64,000 nucleotides of DNA from Crocinitomicaceae bacterium (GTDB taxonomy: Bacteria; Bacteroidota; Bacteroidia; Flavobacteriales_G; Salibacteraceae), in assembly GCA_002707155.1 (NCBI GenBank), contig PAME01000001.1:604029-668028 (forward strand), written 5' to 3'. Positions 7,898 through 17,394 of this stretch are shown piece by piece. The notes under the pieces are model-generated. The model worked only from the letters and a program-made list of their open reading frames with translations, was not told where the DNA came from and searched no databases. The position numbers were made by a program, and so were the translations under genes. Positions within the stretch are counted from its first letter, which is position 1, and every line of letters starts with the position of its first letter.

Positions 7898-8010
7898 AAG
7901 AACAAATGTATCTTACTGTTCTTCATGTTGTTGATAACATATTGAGTTTTTAACACAGCTGGTAATGTATAAAAATTTACCTTGTATCGTTGATTTTAAA
8001 ACCCAAAGTT

Positions 8011-8196
8011 ATGTCACGACGAAAAATGTTAATCTACAGCAAGACTATTTTAAGAAAAGTAAGTTTTGATGCTCGATTATTTCAAAAGGAACTTGCAAAA
8101 GCGTTAAGCACTCTATCTGAACGCGAAGCAAAGGAGTTGAGACATTGGGTGCTGAGAAATTTTCATCAGCAAGCAGCTCCTGTTTTATTGGCCTAA
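8011..8196 (+). CDS. Small conserved hypothetical protein (61 aa)
   Basis: Using the ATG at 8011 rather than the upstream TTG at 7990 gives MSRRKMLIYSKTILRKVSFD at the N-terminus. I recall this pattern (short, basic, with KVSFD.RLF) in small proteins of many Bacteroidota. It is mostly helical with no signal or membrane segment. It converges on the exosortase operon, overlapping its last gene by 4 bases. Function unknown. Confidence 0.62.
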   Translation: MSRRKMLIYSKTILRKVSFDARLFQKELAKALSTLSEREAKELRHWVLRNFHQQAAPVLLA

Positions 8197-8654
8197 TTTT
8201 TTTCTTTTTTATACAGTAAAAAAGCAGGAATCAAGAAAAAGCAAGCCAGTGGCGATTGTATAAATTCAATTAACTTTCTAGCTACTCCATATCCTTCATG
8301 CTCGGCTCCAAAGGCAAACCCTAGAGCAAAAATGAGCGCTGCCAAGGAGAAAATCCCTACAAAGAAAACAATGGTAATTCTCTGATAAAGTTGTTCTTTA
8401 AAAAACAATCGAATCAAAACTAAGGACGCGTATAAGTACAATACACTAAAGAGGAGAATAAGCGTAAACTTTCCATAATAAAGGCTCCAATAGGATACAT
8501 TTTCCAGAAAAAAAAGACTTTTTGGTAGGTAGGGGTTAGTTTGTTCTTTCCATAAATAGTACAAATGTCCATTTATACTTTCGAATAAGAATTCTCTAAA
8601 GAAGCCTAAAACGAATAAACCAAAAGTAACAGCAACTATTTTAAGTTTTGACAT
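8193..8654 (-). CDS. Exosortase F system-associated membrane protein
   Basis: A 153-residue protein with four hydrophobic helices (about 7-25, 50-80, 90-115 and 130-148) and almost no soluble part. Its position, overlapping xrtF by 14 bases, and its size and topology match the small protein that accompanies XrtF in Bacteroidota. The partner's role is not established; it may help present the substrate or stabilise the sortase. It is the third gene of the PID-CTERM / xrtF operon. Confidence 0.8.
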   Translation of the reverse strand: MSKLKIVAVTFGLFVLGFFREFLFESINGHLYYLWKEQTNPYLPKSLFFLENVSYWSLYYGKFTLILLFSVLYLYASLVLIRLFFKEQLYQRITIVFFVGIFSLAALIFALGFAFGAEHEGYGVARKLIEFIQSPLACFFLIPAFLLYKKEKN

Positions 8655-9174
8655 CGCTTAATTTATTGCTCCATAGATACCAAAGATAAAATACGTAGGA
8701 GTAAACAACGATAGTAAAAGTATAGGTGTGGTTGAATTCTAAGGAATCGGGCGAGAAGTTCTGAATCATTGCGAGTGCAGTTACCCGAAGCACATTGAGG
8801 ATATGTATGGTTAGAATTCCAAGAGGAATAAACCAAAGTTTACTTTTCACTGGGCCAGGGTAGGCTAGAACGAACCCAGTAAATAGGGCAAATAATGAAA
8901 GTCCATTGCATGGGTCGCCGATCCAAACCCCATGGGAACCATCTATGCCTACTGTGCGCATCGACGCTCCATGAAGGTCGGTAGGAATCGTTGCAAAACC
9001 CATAGCTTTTAATAACCAATCGCTATTTTGAACAATAATGTTTATGATAAAAGTATCCGCAAATTTGGCTGGGTTCAGCCAAATATCGTAAAGGAAAAAC
9101 CAGGAAACGAATAGAAAAAAAGAAGTCAGGATAAACCTGACCAATTTGTTTTTGACTAACTCTTTGAAATTCAT
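8641..9174 (-). CDS. xrtF: Exosortase family protein XrtF
   Basis: An integral membrane cysteine transpeptidase-like enzyme of 177 residues with about five helices. The three residues expected of exosortases are present: Cys89 in GDPCNGLSLFALF, Arg130 in ILNVLRVTAL and His149 in FNHTYTFT. XrtF is expected to cleave and sort proteins carrying a C-terminal tripartite signal at the cytoplasmic membrane. Fifteen bases separate it from the upstream gene for a small protein with just such a tail, and it overlaps the downstream partner gene. Confidence 0.92.
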   Translation of the reverse strand: MNFKELVKNKLVRFILTSFFLFVSWFFLYDIWLNPAKFADTFIINIIVQNSDWLLKAMGFATIPTDLHGASMRTVGIDGSHGVWIGDPCNGLSLFALFTGFVLAYPGPVKSKLWFIPLGILTIHILNVLRVTALAMIQNFSPDSLEFNHTYTFTIVVYSYVFYLWYLWSNKLSDVKT

Positions 9175-9189
9175 TCAGGCAGAGCCGAA

Positions 9190-9414
9190 TTAGTTTTTTA
9201 CAGAATCGAATATTTTTTTGCCACCAAAAGCAACACCTGCTGCCATTAAAAGACTAATACCGCCATCAATTGGAACACATGGGCTGGGGATGCAACCCTG
9301 TTGTCCACCTGGTCCACCACCACCACCTGGAGGCGAGGCTAAAACATCAGTGCCAAGTGCCATCATAGCTACAAAAGAAAACGTTGCTATTAATTTGAAT
9401 GCATATTTTTTCAT
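9190..9414 (-). CDS. Small PID-CTERM-like sorting-signal protein, probable XrtF substrate
   Basis: A 74-residue precursor. Residues 1-26 form a signal peptide ending near VLASPP. Next is a Gly/Pro stretch, then two cysteines in GCIPSPC, then VPIDGG followed by a hydrophobic helix (ISLLMAAGVAFG) and a basic end with KK. The motif, membrane segment and basic tail are the three parts of an exosortase-type sorting signal. I recall this form as PID-CTERM. After loss of signal and tail the mature peptide would be only about 20-25 residues. The open frame extends to a TTG at 9444, but ATG at 9414 fits the signal peptide and the promoter. Confidence 0.82.
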   Translation of the reverse strand: MKKYAFKLIATFSFVAMMALGTDVLASPPGGGGGPGGQQGCIPSPCVPIDGGISLLMAAGVAFGGKKIFDSVKN

Positions 9415-9432
9415 ACGATTTTTCTTAGAGTA

Positions 9433-9465
9433 CAAAAATAGCAAATTAGCGAAGCATATTCAAAA
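9433..9465 (-). promoter_or_regulatory. Promoter of the PID-CTERM / xrtF operon
   Basis: On the minus strand a -33 box TTTTG (9461-9465) is followed after 20 bases by TATTTTTG (9433-9440). This matches the Bacteroidota consensus (TTG then TAnnTTTG). The -7 box ends 18 bases before the ATG at 9414, so the leader is very short. Confidence 0.6.
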
Positions 9466-9556: not shown

Positions 9557-9717
9557 TTTGTTACTGTCGTATTCCTGTCCCTTATTCGAGGATATTTAAA
9601 TGCGTTATTACTCGTTGAGCTGCTGACCCTGAAATTTCGGGGCGCATGACTCTAGCGGGTATATAGGAGTTAGTGGTCTCCAGTTCGAGGGTAATACCTA
9701 CATTATTACTCGGTGAG

Positions 9718-9738
9718 ATGCTGAAACAAGTTCAGCAT
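9718..9738. repeat. REP-like hairpin, type ATGCTGAA
   Basis: ATGCTGAA-ACAAG-TTCAGCAT: a perfect 8-bp inverted repeat with a 5-base loop. First of five copies in the array. Confidence 0.8.
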
Positions 9739-9877
9739 GACACTAGTGGGTTAAATAGGAGTTACTGATTCCGAAGACTCGAGGCGCATGATTCTTTCTG
9801 GTTAATTGAGTTGCTGATTCCGATTTATAACCGGAAGGAATTAAAACTATTATGTTGTCCAATCCGCAGTTACCGTC

Positions 9878-9898
9878 ATCCTGAATTTAGTTCAGGAT
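9878..9898. repeat. REP-like hairpin, type ATCCTGAA
   Basis: ATCCTGAA-TTTAG-TTCAGGAT: an 8-bp inverted repeat, a one-base stem variant of the other hairpin class, with compensated pairing. The left of two copies. Confidence 0.75.
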
Positions 9899-10114
9899 CT
9901 CAGAGGTAACTATTCGAATTGTACTAGGCGGAGCTATTGTTTCCAAATTCGAGGATAATTAGCTGTATTATAACTGCCTGGATTATTATTGTATGAGTTG
10001 CTGATTCCGAGGATTCGGTGGCGCATGACTCTTTCTGGTTAATTGGAGTTGCTGATTCCGAAGATTTGGGATTTGGAGCTTAGTATTGTAGGTTCTATGT
10101 AATTTTGATTTAGA

Positions 10115-10399
10115 ATGGAGGAATACTGGGTGTACATTATTGGAAATAAAGATAGTGCAGTAGTGTATGTTGGAATGACCAACAATCTTAGACGAAGAAT
10201 AGCTGAACATAAAGAAGGCCATGGTTCGGTGTTTACAGCAAAATACAATGTCAATAGGCTTCTTTATTATGATGGATTTCAAACTGCTGGGCAGGCTATT
10301 GCTAAAGAAAAGCAACTTAAAAACTGGCATCGTGAATGGAAATTAAATTTGATAAAGGAGTTTAATCCAGAGTTTAGAGATTTATTCGAGGATATTTAG
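10115..10399 (+). CDS. Small GIY-YIG family endonuclease
   Basis: A 94-residue, single-domain GIY-YIG nuclease. The motifs are YWVYIIGN (GIY-like strand), VYVGMTNNLRRRIAEH (YIG-like strand, catalytic-type Arg and His) and AKEKQLKNWHREWK (metal-binding Glu in EKQ). Such stand-alone proteins are common in Bacteroidota and their function is unknown. The gene is isolated among non-coding repeats and has no co-directional neighbour. Its last codons (TTCGAGGATATTTAG) are part of the surrounding repeat unit. Confidence 0.85.
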   Translation: MEEYWVYIIGNKDSAVVYVGMTNNLRRRIAEHKEGHGSVFTAKYNVNRLLYYDGFQTAGQAIAKEKQLKNWHREWKLNLIKEFNPEFRDLFEDI

Positions 10400-10419
10400 T
10401 TGGATTATTACTTGGTGAG

Positions 10420-10440
10420 ATGCTGAAACAAGTACAGCAT
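10420..10440. repeat. REP-like hairpin, type ATGCTGAA (one mismatch)
   Basis: ATGCTGAA-ACAAG-TACAGCAT: one base of the right arm differs from the consensus. It lies 20 bases after the nuclease stop codon and could also act as the 3-prime end structure of that transcript. Confidence 0.7.
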
Positions 10441-10582
10441 GACACTAGCGGGTTAAATAGTAGTTGCTGATTCAGAAGACTCGGTGGCGCATGACTCTTT
10501 CTGGTTAATAATAGCTGATGATTTCAATTCTCTAACCAGAAGGAAGTAAAACTATTATGTTGTGCAATCCTCAGTTACCGTT

Positions 10583-10603
10583 ATCCTGAATTTAGTTCAG
10601 GAT
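10583..10603. repeat. REP-like hairpin, type ATCCTGAA
   Basis: ATCCTGAA-TTTAG-TTCAGGAT, identical in the stem and loop to the copy at 9878. Confidence 0.75.
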
Positions 10604-10702
10604 CTCACAGGTAACTATTTGAATTGTACTAGGCTGAGCTATTGTCTCCAAATTCGAGGATGATTAGTTGTATTATAACTGCCTGGATTATTATTGGTTG
10701 AG

Positions 10703-10724
10703 ATGCTGAAAACAAGTTCAGCAT
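10703..10724. repeat. REP-like hairpin, type ATGCTGAA
   Basis: ATGCTGAA-AACAAG-TTCAGCAT: the loop has one extra A compared with the other copies. Confidence 0.75.
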
Positions 10725-10795
10725 GACTCTGTCGGGTAAATAGGAGTTAATGGTCTCAAGTTCGAGGATATCTACTAACATTATTATTGGGTGAG

Positions 10796-10816
10796 ATGCT
10801 GAAACAAGTTCAGCAT
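10796..10816. repeat. REP-like hairpin, type ATGCTGAA
   Basis: ATGCTGAA-ACAAG-TTCAGCAT, a perfect copy. Confidence 0.8.
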
Positions 10817-10937
10817 GACTCTAGCGGGTTAATAGGAGTTGCTGATTCCGAAGACTCAGGACCGCATGACTCTTTCTGGTTAATTGGAGTTAATGGTCTC
10901 CAGTTCGAGGATAATACTAACATTATTACTTGGTGAG

Positions 10938-10958
10938 ATGCTGAAACAAGTTCAGCAT
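10938..10958. repeat. REP-like hairpin, type ATGCTGAA
   Basis: ATGCTGAA-ACAAG-TTCAGCAT, a perfect copy and the last in the array. Confidence 0.8.
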
Positions 10959-11176
10959 GACAATAGCAGGGTAATAGGAGTTGCTGATTCCGAAGACCCG
11001 GGACCGCATGATACTAGCGGGTTAAAAATAGATACTGATGCTGAAGATTCATAACGACAATAACTAGTTCTAAACTACCCTCTTTGATGCAGCGGCTTAC
11101 CTCGGAAGTGCTTTGTGATAGGGGTTACGTTAAAAGAGCAAATAGACTTCTACTTTTGCTTTTAAATAAAACAGGT

Positions 11177-11550: not shown

Positions 11551-13506
11551 ATGTCTGAATGCGAACTGTCGGTCATTATTGTAAATTATAATGTAAAGCA
11601 TTTTCTTGAGCAATGCCTTATCTCGGTTGAGCGCGCGTCCAAAAACCTTAAGGTTGAAATAATTGTTGTAGACAATCATTCTTTGGACGGTTCAGTAGAA
11701 ATGGTTCAGAAGAAATTTCCCGAAGTAAGCCTAATTGCAAGCCCTAACAATTTAGGGTTTTCAAAAGGAAATAACTTGGCCTTAAAAAATTGCAAAGCTA
11801 ACTTCGCTTTGTTGCTCAACCCAGACACTATTGTGGAGGAAGACACCTTTGAAAAAGTGCTCTCTTACATGAAATCACATGATGATGTTGGTGGACTGGG
11901 AGTGCGAATGTTGGATGGAAAAGGGCGTTTTTTACCTGAATCAAAGCGTGGACTTCCAACACCCACCGTTGCGTTTTATAAAATGTTTGGGTTATCCAGA
12001 CTTTTCCCTAAATCCAGAAAATTTGGCAACTATCACTTATCCTATTTAAGCGAACACGAAACTCATGAGGTAGATGTGCTTTCGGGTGCATTTATGCTAC
12101 TGAGAAAGTCGGTATTGGATAAAATTGGATTGTTGGATGAGACCTTCTTTATGTATGGAGAGGACATAGATTTATCCTACCGAATACAGCTGGGAGGATA
12201 TAAAAACGTTTACTTCTCCGATACCTCCATCATCCATTATAAAGGCGAAAGCACTAAGAAAACAAGTGTCAATTACGTGTTTGTGTTTTACAGAGCAATG
12301 GCAATTTTTGCGAAGAAACACTTTACCAAGAACAACGCCTTATTGTTTGGGCTGCTCATACATGGCGCAATATACTTGCGGGCGATGGTTACCTTGGCAG
12401 TTAATTTTATTCGATTAGGTTATGTTGCTCTTTTAGATTTTGGTGTATTGTTAATTGGACTATTGGCTACATTAATGGTTTACCAGCAATACACAGGTAT
12501 TGAAACTCCAACAGATTTAGTTCAAATCTTCCTGCCCTTGTACGCCTTGATTTGGGTGATAAGTTCGTTTTTTAATGGCGCCTACGACAGACCCTATTTG
12601 CTGAGAAATTTTGTACGCGGAACACTTATCGGAACTGGGGTTATTTTAGTGTTGTACTCCTTGCTGCCTGAATCCTATCGATTTTCTCGAGCAGTCATTT
12701 TAATCGGTTCCGTTGTCTCCTTATTATTAGGTGTAGGGGTGAAGTTACTTTTAGATAAGATCAACTTATTTGGGTTTCGACTTGGGAACTCTACGAAACG
12801 GAGGTTTGCAATTGTTGGCTCGGCTCAGGAAATTGAAAGGGTGATCGAATTAATGCGTCAAACGACTATTGAGCCTAATTTTATTGCTAAGGTTTCCGAT
12901 CAAGTAATTGACGATTTGGATGAAAATTTTGTCGGCCATATCAATCAATTGCGTGAAATTACGCGCATTTTTACTATTGAAGAAGTGATATTTTGCGCCG
13001 AAAGTATCGAAACCAGTAAGATTCTAGAGCAAATGTCTCAGCTGGATGGTGCAAAATTGGATTATAAGATTGCCCCGCCAGAAAGTATGTTTGTTATCGG
13101 TTCCAATTCTATTAATACCAGTGGAGAACTGTATTCAGTGTTAAGTATCAATGCAATCAGCAAACCTAAAAACCTGAGGAACAAACGACTTGTAGATTTG
13201 GTAACGTCTGTTTTGCTCCTTCTTTTATTTCCAATTTTAGCTTTTTTCATTCAGCAACCGTGGCAGTTGTTTTCCAATGTTTTCGCCGTATTGTTTGGTC
13301 AAAAAACTTGGGTGGGTTACGAGAAAAATGGAGGGAATTTATACGACTTGCCGACCATAAAACCGGGCGTATTGAGTTTGGCGAAAATTGTAGGTGAAAA
13401 AAATGAAGGAAAAATCACTCAAATGAACCTTATGTATGCAAAGGATTTTAATGTGCGCAATGACCTTTCCATAGTAATTCGAGGTTGGCGTTTATTGGGC
13501 AGCTAA
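11551..13506 (+). CDS. GT2 glycosyltransferase fused to a degenerate sugar-transferase-like module
   Basis: Residues 5-240 are a GT-A glycosyltransferase family 2 domain (LSVIIVNYNVKHFLEQCL, VVDNHSLDGS, LLLNPDTIV, FFMYGEDIDLSYR). Several membrane helices (about 265-400) follow. The C-terminus has a Rossmann-like segment (FAIVGSAQEIERVIEL) and a piece resembling the start of polyprenyl-phosphate sugar transferases (KRLVDLVTSVLLLLLFPILA). The catalytic KFRSM-like block of that family is not visible. It probably makes a lipid-linked or surface glycan. Its end overlaps the converging SRPBCC gene by 15 bases. Confidence 0.78.
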   Translation: MSECELSVIIVNYNVKHFLEQCLISVERASKNLKVEIIVVDNHSLDGSVEMVQKKFPEVSLIASPNNLGFSKGNNLALKNCKANFALLLNPDTIVEEDTFEKVLSYMKSHDDVGGLGVRMLDGKGRFLPESKRGLPTPTVAFYKMFGLSRLFPKSRKFGNYHLSYLSEHETHEVDVLSGAFMLLRKSVLDKIGLLDETFFMYGEDIDLSYRIQLGGYKNVYFSDTSIIHYKGESTKKTSVNYVFVFYRAMAIFAKKHFTKNNALLFGLLIHGAIYLRAMVTLAVNFIRLGYVALLDFGVLLIGLLATLMVYQQYTGIETPTDLVQIFLPLYALIWVISSFFNGAYDRPYLLRNFVRGTLIGTGVILVLYSLLPESYRFSRAVILIGSVVSLLLGVGVKLLLDKINLFGFRLGNSTKRRFAIVGSAQEIERVIELMRQTTIEPNFIAKVSDQVIDDLDENFVGHINQLREITRIFTIEEVIFCAESIETSKILEQMSQLDGAKLDYKIAPPESMFVIGSNSINTSGELYSVLSINAISKPKNLRNKRLVDLVTSVLLLLLFPILAFFIQQPWQLFSNVFAVLFGQKTWVGYEKNGGNLYDLPTIKPGVLSLAKIVGEKNEGKITQMNLMYAKDFNVRNDLSIVIRGWRLLGS

Positions 13507-13902
13507 TCTATTAAAGTATTTCTTGAGCGGTTCCCAATAATAATCGTTCCAGCCATTTGAAATGCTTTCGAAATAGAGTTCGGGAATGCCTTTGTGAATA
13601 AAAGTAAGGTGGGTTCCATTATCGAGTTTCTTGAGTTTAAATTGAACCGTGGAGTAGTGATAGTCCGGCCAATGTTCTTCTACTGCGCGCCACTCTTGTA
13701 CAATTAGTTTTCCTGGATCCAACAGTACGTTTCTTCCTTTAATGTAATTGGAGTAGGCGCTAAACTCCGTATTTAAAGCATCACTAATATTAGCCTCACT
13801 GCCTGTAAATAGTTCGTGTTCTTTCTTCGTTAACAGCGCAGTATAGAAAACATACGGATCCACATTGAAATACAACTCTTGTATGAGGTTCCTTGTTTTC
13901 AT
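13492..13902 (-). CDS. SRPBCC / AHSA1-like domain protein
   Basis: A 136-residue START-fold (SRPBCC) protein of the activator-of-Hsp90 (AHSA1) type. It has an N-terminal strand and helix (YFNVDPYVFYTALL), a central YIKGRNVLLDPGKLIVQEWR and a C-terminal helix with WNDYYWEPLKKYF. The family binds hydrophobic ligands; the ligand here is unknown. The next gene's stop region touches its start (1-base overlap at 13902), so the pair is an operon. Confidence 0.78.
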   Translation of the reverse strand: MKTRNLIQELYFNVDPYVFYTALLTKKEHELFTGSEANISDALNTEFSAYSNYIKGRNVLLDPGKLIVQEWRAVEEHWPDYHYSTVQFKLKKLDNGTHLTFIHKGIPELYFESISNGWNDYYWEPLKKYFNRLAAQ

Positions 13903-14267
13903 TACACGTATTCCTTTTTAACCACCAAGGTATAATTGTCTCCCTCTAAGGGCAGGTAGCCCTGGTCGTAGCAAAAAAAATAGGTCTTGCCCTTTTTGGT
14001 GATGTAAACATTAGTGTAATACTCAAAATTGAAACCCAAACGGGTGAGTATTTTTTCTTTTGTTTTGGTCGTGTCATCCGGATTTAACTGCGCGAGTATA
14101 TCTCGATTCTTTTTTAGAATTCGATTGATTTGCCGCACGTGATTGTTTGAAACCCGATTGAGTTTGTTGTAATGCGCGTTTCTGCAGGAATCGTTGCAAA
14201 ATTTTTTATCAATGCGACCAAATAAAGTTTTACCGCAATCCAGACAGGTATTTTCAGCTTCTTCCAT
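13902..14267 (-). CDS. Small zinc-ribbon protein (DUF2116-like)
   Basis: A protein of about 121 residues whose N-terminus carries a four-cysteine zinc finger: CLDCGKTLFGR and KKFCNDSCRNAHYN. A basic helical part follows (HVRQINRILKKNRDILAQL), then a C-terminal part rich in aromatic residues. Similar proteins are common in Bacteroidota and may bind nucleic acid. The start is either ATG at 14267 or ATG at 14276 three codons upstream. It overlaps the SRPBCC gene by one base. Confidence 0.72.
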   Translation of the reverse strand: MEEAENTCLDCGKTLFGRIDKKFCNDSCRNAHYNKLNRVSNNHVRQINRILKKNRDILAQLNPDDTTKTKEKILTRLGFNFEYYTNVYITKKGKTYFFCYDQGYLPLEGDNYTLVVKKEYV

Positions 14268-14307
14268 ACTATGCAATGAAGTTTAAAATTACACAAATTC
14301 TGAAAAC

Positions 14308-14361: not shown

Positions 14362-17300
14362 TTACTGCTTCATTGCTTTTACGGTTTCTGTTTGGTTGTT
14401 GTAGTGCATGTTGATCAAAACGATACCTTGACCCTTAACCTCAATGGTCTCCACCATACTTCCTTTTTCTATCGTACCCCTATTGAGTAACTTACCTTGA
14501 ACATCAAAAACGCGGTAATTCATGTCACTTACCGCCGCTTGAGTAAAATGAACGTTAAACTGACCGTGCTCTTGCACCAATTGATAGCCAGCGGAATTGG
14601 ACAATTCTTTCAGGCCAGTAGCCTCAGCAACTTCTATGGATTGTTTGTAGGCTACGTTGCAATCCGAGTTCCCGTTTTCTGCTGTCAATACAATTTCATA
14701 CACACCTGCTGCTGTATAACTGTGTTTAGGCTCCATTTCAGTAGAAGTTTGATTGTCTCCAAAATCCCACAAATAAGAAGCGATGCCACCAGTAGAAAGA
14801 TTTTTAAATTCAATTTCTTTATTGGTTCTAAATGAAAGCAATTGATTCGCAAAACCAAAGTTTGTTTTCATTTCAGCAGGTTCGTGTATGCTGAAATATT
14901 CGGTAACCGCAGGACAATTTAAATCCATACTTTGAATTTCTATGGAATAATTCCCAGGAGCCAAATCACTAATTGTTTCTGAAATACTGGCATTAAATGA
15001 ACCTCCAACATATTGTTGATCTTCATCCATCCATGAAGTAAAATAGTTTCCAAGATTGTAAAATTCAAGCGTATTTGAACCTGAATTTTCACCATAACAG
15101 CTTGAGTTTGTAGTAAGCATTTCTTTAGCAAAATTGTACACATGCAACACAAAACGCGCATTGGTCGTAGTATCGCTCAGTATGAAGCTATATAAAGAAT
15201 CGGAGGCCGTTAAATTTTTTGAGTTTCCAGTGTAGGTGTCTTCAAGAATAACGCAGCCGTTAATTTTATCTAAGTTAGAAAAGGATAATTCGTAAGTTCC
15301 AGAGACATAACCGTGCGCATTCAATGGGATTTCAATATGGCCTTGATCAGGACCGGTAACATATCTATAAGTAGCAGTGTCATCAGCTGCTTTAAAACTA
15401 ACATTTGGGTAGGGGTAAGGATTGGAAAATTGATATTTATCCATACCAGCATCGAAATTTGCAGTAGCCCCTTTGTTAAACCTCAAATACGTGTAATTAA
15501 ATTTATTGGGGTAAAGTGGAGTACTTAATTTAACTTGGATTTCGTCGTTATCTTTTACGTTCTTTTGATACACCTTTTGAGTGGTGGATTTATCCGACTC
15601 ATTAAACACTAAACTTGGAGATGCGCCAGTGACTTTCACAAAAAATGCTTGAAAAGGTGGGATAATATTATCTAGGGCATAACCACCGTTGTCGGCCTTA
15701 AATAAATACGAGTCACCAGATACGTTGTTACGAGTGACTGACGAATAGTCTATTGTCGAAGGAAAAGGGTTGCCTACTAATGCCCAATTGAAATTAGCCC
15801 CTGAACCACTAAAAGTCATGGTAGATCCATTTGCTGCACTAATGGTGTATGGTCCAACATTAGGAGCACCAGTAACGTCTATACTGTATGCTGATCTTGA
15901 ACCCCAACCTGAACCTGGTCCAATATACCAAGTTAAGCCATTTTGTGGACTGATAGTATTTGAAACGTTTGTTGCTGCAGTCCAACCTTCATCAAAGTCA
16001 CTTGAAACACTTCCGTTATTATAAGAATAAGTAGAAGCAATTCCGCCAGTAGAAGGTGTATTTGAACCGGGAAACCCGTAAGTGTATAAACAATCTGCAC
16101 AATTACTAGCGTTATAATCAATATCTCCTAATGTTACACCAGTTATAGGGACAGTTAACAATCTGTATTCAATATTAGATAAGGTCTGAGTGCGAAACTC
16201 ACAAGTAACGTTGCCGGAAACCGTATGCGAATTAAGGTTACCTAAGCTTGCCATGCCGCTGCCGTTGTCTTTAAGCACCACTTTGCCATTTGTGGAGAGC
16301 GCGGTTGCTGCTGGAGTTGAAAATGTAACCCCTGTAGTTACGTTTAAAGAACCCGACCCCGCAATAGATACTCCACCAGAAGTATTAGAAATATCTAAAA
16401 CTGAGACATTAGCAGCGCTGTTTACAGTAATTGTTTGAGCTGTAGAACCTGCCATTGACAGTACATCGCCTGTACTTGCGGATATATTTCCGTTAATAAC
16501 TAGGTTTCCTGCAGAAATTAATAAGTCATTACCGTTAGTAGTAAGTGTTTTACCTCCATCGATTATAACATTATTGGTAACCTTACTAATATTCACATTG
16601 CCAGAAAGCGTTTGTGACTCGATACCGATGTTACGGTAATCAATATTTGCATTAACCAAATAGTTTGAAAGATTACCAAAATAAAATATACTTTCAGCCG
16701 TTCCTTGAGTAATTTGCCCACCGTTATTTCTGATGTCAAAAACACCACCCATTCTAATTTTCGCTGAGGCATTGTTCATATTAATAGTAAGACTAGTAGC
16801 TGCTACTGATTGAGCTTGAAGAATTATGTTTCGCTTAACGTTAATCGAATCGGTCAAATTCAGGGTCATACTTGAAGCTGCCCCTGTTGAGTAATTATAC
16901 ATGTCCCGACATTCTACAGCGCAACCTAAATTAACAGTCATAGTACCATCGGATAATGAGAAGTTATATAAATCTTGTACTAATTGCATTAAACCACTAC
17001 CGCTTATGTTTGCCGTATAACCCGTAAAACCACCAACAGTACGAGGTGTCATTCCTTTTGATGAGTATAAAGTTCCATTGATAACCAAGTTGTTTGATTG
17101 TGAATTACCCGTAGGAATCATTACAACATTCTTTGAGACAAAAAGTACCACTCCAGTATTAATAGTAAATGAAGTACTGTTGCCTTCTATGTACAAAGTT
17201 GAAATACTCGTGGTTGCAGTAAGTGTCACCGCATCACCATTTTCAATGTACACCTCATCACCAGGAACGGGTACACCATTATCCCAAGTTCCTGAAGTAT

Positions 17301-17394
17301 TCCAATTTCCACTGGCCACAGATCGCGTGGTTTTGGCTGTTGAACTGATACCTATTAATAAAATAAAAACGGAGGTTAAAATTGATGTTTTCAT
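14362..17394 (-). CDS. T9SS type A cargo protein with beta-rich repeats and a PKD domain
   Basis: A 1010-residue secreted protein. Residues 1-20 form a signal peptide. The region up to about 380 is Ser/Thr/Asn-rich with parallel-beta-helix-like repeats (SGNWNTSGTWDNGVPVPGDE start). A PKD domain lies near 860-930 (YLWDFGDNQTSTEMEPKHSY). The last about 80 residues are a type A T9SS sorting domain (YRVFDVQGKLLNRGTIEKG). It should be exported by type IX secretion and attached to the cell surface, possibly as an adhesin. It is monocistronic, with a terminator after it and a -7 element before it. Confidence 0.85.
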   Translation of the reverse strand: MKTSILTSVFILLIGISSTAKTTRSVASGNWNTSGTWDNGVPVPGDEVYIENGDAVTLTATTSISTLYIEGNSTSFTINTGVVLFVSKNVVMIPTGNSQSNNLVINGTLYSSKGMTPRTVGGFTGYTANISGSGLMQLVQDLYNFSLSDGTMTVNLGCAVECRDMYNYSTGAASSMTLNLTDSINVKRNIILQAQSVAATSLTINMNNASAKIRMGGVFDIRNNGGQITQGTAESIFYFGNLSNYLVNANIDYRNIGIESQTLSGNVNISKVTNNVIIDGGKTLTTNGNDLLISAGNLVINGNISASTGDVLSMAGSTAQTITVNSAANVSVLDISNTSGGVSIAGSGSLNVTTGVTFSTPAATALSTNGKVVLKDNGSGMASLGNLNSHTVSGNVTCEFRTQTLSNIEYRLLTVPITGVTLGDIDYNASNCADCLYTYGFPGSNTPSTGGIASTYSYNNGSVSSDFDEGWTAATNVSNTISPQNGLTWYIGPGSGWGSRSAYSIDVTGAPNVGPYTISAANGSTMTFSGSGANFNWALVGNPFPSTIDYSSVTRNNVSGDSYLFKADNGGYALDNIIPPFQAFFVKVTGASPSLVFNESDKSTTQKVYQKNVKDNDEIQVKLSTPLYPNKFNYTYLRFNKGATANFDAGMDKYQFSNPYPYPNVSFKAADDTATYRYVTGPDQGHIEIPLNAHGYVSGTYELSFSNLDKINGCVILEDTYTGNSKNLTASDSLYSFILSDTTTNARFVLHVYNFAKEMLTTNSSCYGENSGSNTLEFYNLGNYFTSWMDEDQQYVGGSFNASISETISDLAPGNYSIEIQSMDLNCPAVTEYFSIHEPAEMKTNFGFANQLLSFRTNKEIEFKNLSTGGIASYLWDFGDNQTSTEMEPKHSYTAAGVYEIVLTAENGNSDCNVAYKQSIEVAEATGLKELSNSAGYQLVQEHGQFNVHFTQAAVSDMNYRVFDVQGKLLNRGTIEKGSMVETIEVKGQGIVLINMHYNNQTETVKAMKQ

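Follow-up and report, generated by a model that had tools for sequence, protein, structure and literature searches.

Does an exosortase whose gene lies directly behind that of a tiny precursor serve this precursor alone, and what would the product of such a pair do? The question is raised by a three-gene operon on the minus strand (9414 to 8193) of a 64,000-nucleotide stretch of DNA (the window) from a marine Bacteroidota genome (3.04-Mb assembly). Its open reading frames encode a precursor of 74 aa, an exosortase of 177 aa and a membrane protein of 153 aa; 15 nt separate the precursor stop from the exosortase start, and the exosortase and partner genes overlap by 14 nt.

Precursor, exosortase and membrane partner

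The features of the operon are as follows:
9433..9464, minus strand: putative Bacteroidota-type promoter TTTG-N20-TATTTTTG, from a pattern search of the sequence
9190..9414, minus strand: PID-CTERM precursor, 74 aa (NCBIfam NF046080 PID_CTERM, 41.1 bits)
9265..9336, minus strand: predicted mature 24-residue peptide SPPGGGGGPGGQQGCIPSPCVPID, assuming a signal peptidase site between VLA and S and cleavage at PID
9277..9294, minus strand: conserved Cys pair CIPSPC directly before PID, from the alignment of exosortase-adjacent precursors
9259..9273, minus strand: PIDGG signature motif, from the same alignment
8641..9174, minus strand: exosortase X (XrtX), 177 aa (NF046081, 198.5 bits), the only exosortase in the genome
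8193..8654, minus strand: XrtX-associated membrane protein, 153 aa, four-helix bundle (NF046082, 63.9 bits)

The putative promoter matches the Bacteroidota consensus perfectly and ends 18 nt before the precursor ATG; the pattern occurs only twice in the window, roughly as often as chance would give in 64 kb, so the case for it rests on position. Downstream, a 67-aa ORF on the plus strand (7993-8196; ~90% identical within the genus, 67-72% within the family; no match in a family search) converges on the operon, the 3' ends overlapping by 4 nt. Upstream, positions 9582-11025 of the window hold imperfect repeats that fall into several families, with units of 44-177 nt in up to six copies (e.g. 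TTATTACTCGGTGAGATGCTGAAACAAGTTCAGCATGACA), and a GIY-YIG-like ORF (10115-10399) lies inside this stretch.

The precursor (MKKYAFKLIATFSFVAMMALGTDVLA / SPPGGGGGPGGQQGCIPSPCVPIDGG ISLLMAAGVAFGG KKIFDSVKN) passes the PID_CTERM model (cut-off 26 bits) over residues 47-68. It consists of a predicted signal peptide (residues 1-26, boundary read by eye), a predicted mature part (27-50), PIDGG (48-52), a helix (53-65) and a KK tail (66-74). Cleavage by signal peptidase after A26 and by XrtX at D50, both predicted sites, would leave a product of 24 residues. The preliminary description, which had listed one promoter, three genes, a 74-residue precursor with signal peptide, Cys pair, PIDGG, helix and KK tail, and a mature product of about 20-25 residues if cut near PIDGG, thus holds in coordinates and content, the promoter and the ~24-residue product being predictions.

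The identity of the enzyme had to be revised. It had been called XrtF; by the NCBIfam cut-offs it is XrtX (198.5 bits against 170), while its score with the XrtF model (TIGR04128) was 86.8 bits against a cut-off of 90, and XrtF was rejected. Genuine XrtF relatives score the opposite way (XrtF 114-169, XrtX ~100). The Cys/Arg/His set claimed for the enzyme was borne out: C89, R130 and H149, the predicted catalytic residues, were invariant in 50 aligned relatives. The AlphaFold2 model of XrtX was confident (pLDDT 92).

The partner scored below the NF046082 cut-off (63.9 vs 75 bits), but the match was full-length and in the expected place, directly after xrtX. In an alignment of relatives, K62 and Y122 were invariant and a QSP motif nearly so; the four helices claimed earlier reappear in a confident AlphaFold2 model, a predicted four-helix bundle with mean pLDDT 96. 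No homology between XrtX and its partner was found, and a search by sequence and fold gave no convincing solved-structure relative of either.

With XrtX and PID_CTERM above their cut-offs and the partner below, all three genes match NCBIfam families (NF046081, NF046080 and NF046082) and these families are therefore already curated by NCBI, a point missed by the preliminary description. The names of the three models mention neither a Cys pair nor a T9SS neighbour, and a literature search on XrtX or PID-CTERM found no relevant paper. The system belongs to a kind that is curated but apparently unpublished. New here are the one-to-one pairing, the Cys-pair motif, the linkage to T9SS-sorted proteins and the PID-CTERM candidates in XrtF genomes.

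Pairing of exosortase and PID-CTERM protein

This genome holds one exosortase and one PID-CTERM protein, adjoining each other, and a genome-wide search for further PID-CTERM proteins, proposed with the preliminary description, found none: a dedicated sorting system. Among 100 relatives, PID-CTERM was present in 45 of the 48 genomes with a strong XrtX, in 14 of the 24 with a weaker exosortase and in none of the 28 without one; 54 of the 59 positive genomes had just one copy, in most cases on the strand of the enzyme gene and 35-90 nt upstream of it. Across 247 genomes of the class, PID-CTERM occurred in 112/148 with an exosortase vs 2/99 without (Fisher p 5e-35, uncorrected for relatedness). 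Because it recurs across the class, the precursor-exosortase pair is far beyond chance. A lack of homologues near the exosortase in related genomes had been named beforehand as grounds for rejection; homologues proved abundant beside the exosortase.

A dedicated neighbouring substrate had also been thought unusual. Within the PID-CTERM/XrtX family it is the rule (54/59 relatives with one copy), and the pattern is known from other sorting systems: dedicated enzyme-target pairs were described by Haft and Varghese for rhombosortase (PMC3237569), and MrtJ/JDVT-CTERM is such a pair in the myxosortase paper (PMC11980579). In rhombosortase/GlyGly-CTERM and MrtJ/JDVT-CTERM, as here, one target gene adjoins the sorting enzyme; the enzymes, however, are unrelated, the signal motifs differ, and the available text of these papers reports no T9SS partner. 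PEP-CTERM/exosortase (EpsH) shares with the present system a target ending in motif, helix and basic tail, a Cys/Arg/His membrane enzyme and EPS-gene neighbours (a GT2 gene here), but has many targets and a PEP motif in place of one tiny target and a PID motif. At four further loci (L137, L196, L202 and L203) XrtX adjoins EPS-type genes with Wzz/Wzc domains, as classical exosortases do. Three of these Wzz/Wzc-like genes (L196:4254-6311, L203:3955-6369 and L202:1387-3465) end in GYGYGYG repeats.

The pairing has exceptions. No PID-CTERM gene adjoining XrtX was found at L044, L045, L050, L056, L060, L076, L079 and L080, nor at L014 (G073), where one lies ~8 kb away. Five of these loci (L044, L045, L050, L060 and L076) form a clade with a common upstream gene ending ...YFELDxSTWYYFNYFKGVMSVVSSNQAF...

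The tripartite signal is conserved in exosortase-adjacent precursors (78 unique sequences): relative to D, itself present in 76, P stands at -2 in all 78, L at +6 in 76, G at +10 and +14 in 75 and K at +17 in 69, and the second G of the motif occurs in 68. Two Cys within 14 residues before D were found in 71 of the 78; of 34 PID-CTERM proteins not adjoining an exosortase, only 16 had the pair. Two main precursor forms exist, C-x-P-P-P-C-[IV]-PIDGG and CGGPFPPCP-x-P-L-D. The form follows the enzyme tree: the latter form falls into a single group of the XrtX tree (SH-aLRT 88), and 8 changes of substrate type are needed on the tree vs 35.7 in shuffles.

One alternative is that the small protein is a two-helix accessory subunit of XrtX that stays uncut in the membrane and is no substrate at all. 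It is tiny and shares an operon with XrtX, and precursors of no more than 59 aa exist, in which hardly anything separates the two helices. Yet motif, helix and basic tail make up the standard architecture of exosortase targets, and the same C-terminal signal is found on other, much larger proteins, on several proteins in genomes with a single exosortase, and on the products of unlinked genes. One case is G207, which has four PID-CTERM matches and one XrtX, and in which a 965-aa protein (L193:3115-6012) ends in the signal. We regard a subunit role as improbable; the occurrence of PID-CTERM at the end of the 965-aa protein and on several proteins of single-exosortase genomes suggests that it behaves as a sorting tag and not as a feature of the peptide alone.

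A second alternative, quite unlikely in our judgement, concerns the Cys pair as the anchoring site: one Cys would receive a lipid first, as has been suggested for MYXO-CTERM, and the role of XrtX would be limited to trimming the helix, without transpeptidation. The two Cys immediately before the motif in 71/78 adjacent precursors fit this scheme, and cleavage of MYXO-CTERM requires its Cys (PMC11980579). Against it, i) several PID-CTERM proteins, mostly unlinked or accompanied by other exosortases, have no Cys, so that Cys is not needed for the tag; ii) the spacing of the Cys differs between types (CxPxPC vs CGGPFPPC); and iii) exosortases and myxosortase are different enzyme classes.

PID-CTERM also extends to XrtF. 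The XrtF of Flavobacterium johnsoniae, with its exosortase F-associated protein, belongs to the same superfamily and the same kind of enzyme-plus-partner gene pair, but to a different NCBIfam family from XrtX. PID-CTERM was found in 11 of 18 XrtF genomes and is usual in those outside the Flavobacteriaceae-like group, while no PID-CTERM gene was seen beside xrtF in five Flavobacteriaceae-like loci. At two loci (L125 in G010 and L184 in G174) an XrtF has an adjacent PID-CTERM gene, whose product is a possible XrtF substrate. The G174 precursor has only 59 aa, with ~14 residues between its helices.

A T9SS-sorted protein upstream of the peptide gene

Clustering of flanking genes revealed a large protein encoded immediately upstream of the gene for the peptide; its own gene often stops no more than 52 nt before that gene begins. 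In a scan of 31 such proteins, that of the window among them, 26 matched the T9SS type A sorting domain, and a T9SS cargo lies directly upstream at 34 of 60 non-redundant loci with an adjacent PID-CTERM (L177, missed by the domain model, was added by eye). These loci come from many families across the XrtX tree; at one of them (L125) the enzyme is an XrtF. Genes for T9SS cargo are frequent in genomes of this kind, and the background is ~5% of genes (132 C-terminal domains, CTDs, in this 3-Mb genome); a binomial test gave 1e-28, which is overstated since many loci are related and binomial p-values then exaggerate their independence. At loci fetched after the idea arose, a T9SS cargo was present at 10 of 20, a few of which repeat genomes already seen.

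In the window, the putative T9SS cargo gene lies 5 kb upstream of the peptide gene, and three genes stand between them in this genus:
14362..17394, minus strand: 1010-aa putative T9SS-sorted protein with a PKD domain and a weak G8-like start, matched by the G005 cargo
13902-14276, minus strand: small gene with no assigned family
13492-13902, minus strand: AHSA1-like gene
11551-13506, plus strand: GT2/EPS glycosyltransferase

The CTD of the 1010-aa protein (TIGR04183, cut-off 23) scored 25.5 bits in the genome search and 19.5 in hmmscan. The protein is homologous to cargos encoded directly upstream of PID-CTERM elsewhere: the cargo adjoining PID-CTERM in G005 matches it with E 9e-113, the next match in this genome being 9e-5. 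Within the genus, G003 has the gene order of the window (T9SS gene, three inserted genes, peptide gene). G001 and G002 have the GT2 gene and both small genes and keep the peptide and XrtX, and no T9SS cargo was detectable in either. None of the three inserted genes was found at seven searched loci of other genera. Given the orthology with the G005 cargo and the genes inserted between it and the peptide gene in this genus, 14362-17394 is probably the displaced ancestral first gene of the module. The ancestral fourth gene of the operon, which the preliminary description missed, appears to be that of a T9SS surface protein. The cargo is not obligatory, since none was detectable in G001 and G002 and another upstream gene occupies its place at ~40% of loci. 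Gene content, family membership, co-occurrence, conservation and T9SS gene linkage are direct observations.

Proposed mechanism and role

Our main reading, to which we assign a probability of about 0.62, is a dedicated exosortase X system with Sec export, PID cleavage, envelope transfer and a joint surface role with the T9SS protein; we infer cleavage, acceptor, location and joint role of the peptide as follows. Sec would export the precursor, its signal peptide would be removed, and the C-terminal helix would hold it in the inner membrane. XrtX (Cys89/Arg130/His149) and the four-helix partner would cut at or beside PID, and XrtX probably joins the newly formed C-terminus to an envelope lipid or glycan that carries an amine. 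The product would be a peptide of ~24 residues, made up of a Gly/Pro spacer with a Cys pair at its end. Ancestrally, the gene for the peptide was probably co-transcribed with that for the large T9SS-secreted surface protein, which leads to the proposal that the two proteins are parts of a single surface-attachment or matrix module. The operon has probably been split in this genus by inserted polysaccharide and other genes, the peptide now having its own putative promoter.

Experimental work on relatives bears on this scheme. In F. johnsoniae, biofilm and zorb formation require xrtF and its partner, whose substrates were not identified in that 2024 study, and the mutants have the biofilm and zorb defects common to the T9SS mutants porV, porU and sprA (PMC10936215); the enzyme in these experiments is XrtF, and most of the Flavobacteriaceae-like genomes sampled are without PID-CTERM. 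Archaeosortase A depends on PssA/PssD, which take part in lipid-ethanolamine synthesis (PMC7157517), and exosortases are believed to be transpeptidases (PMC11980579). Based on the F. johnsoniae phenotypes, the requirement for PssA/PssD, the transpeptidase view and the T9SS linkage, we infer surface attachment as the best-supported role of the peptide system. At L126 and L127, which have another exosortase, the upstream gene matches a fatty-acid hydroxylase/ornithine lipid hydroxylase OlsE model; such a gene beside a PID-CTERM/exosortase pair hints at an aminolipid acceptor, in a single lineage.

Release of the mature peptide as a signalling or antimicrobial agent, as a short Cys-paired product of a dedicated export operon might suggest, is very improbable: no receptor, immunity, transporter or regulator gene is prominent among the recurrent neighbours, the sequence is conserved over many families and not diversifying, and the Gly/Pro spacer looks structural.

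Attachment to the surface, our preferred role, may be taken one step further. The lipid- or glycan-linked, Cys-paired micro-peptide could be the partner or anchor of the T9SS protein of the same ancestral operon, uniting XrtX and T9SS in one surface module; we hold this to be doubtful, and if true, the module would connect two sorting pathways for which no cooperation is known.

Little is known of exosortase targets in Bacteroidota, and for a test case nothing could be simpler than one enzyme with one partner and one product of ~24 residues. The recurrent T9SS neighbour gives an indication of what the peptide works with, and the PID signal in many XrtF genomes provides concrete candidate XrtF substrates. 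Strict pairing, the Cys-Pro motif and the recurring T9SS neighbour together make a role at the cell surface directly testable.
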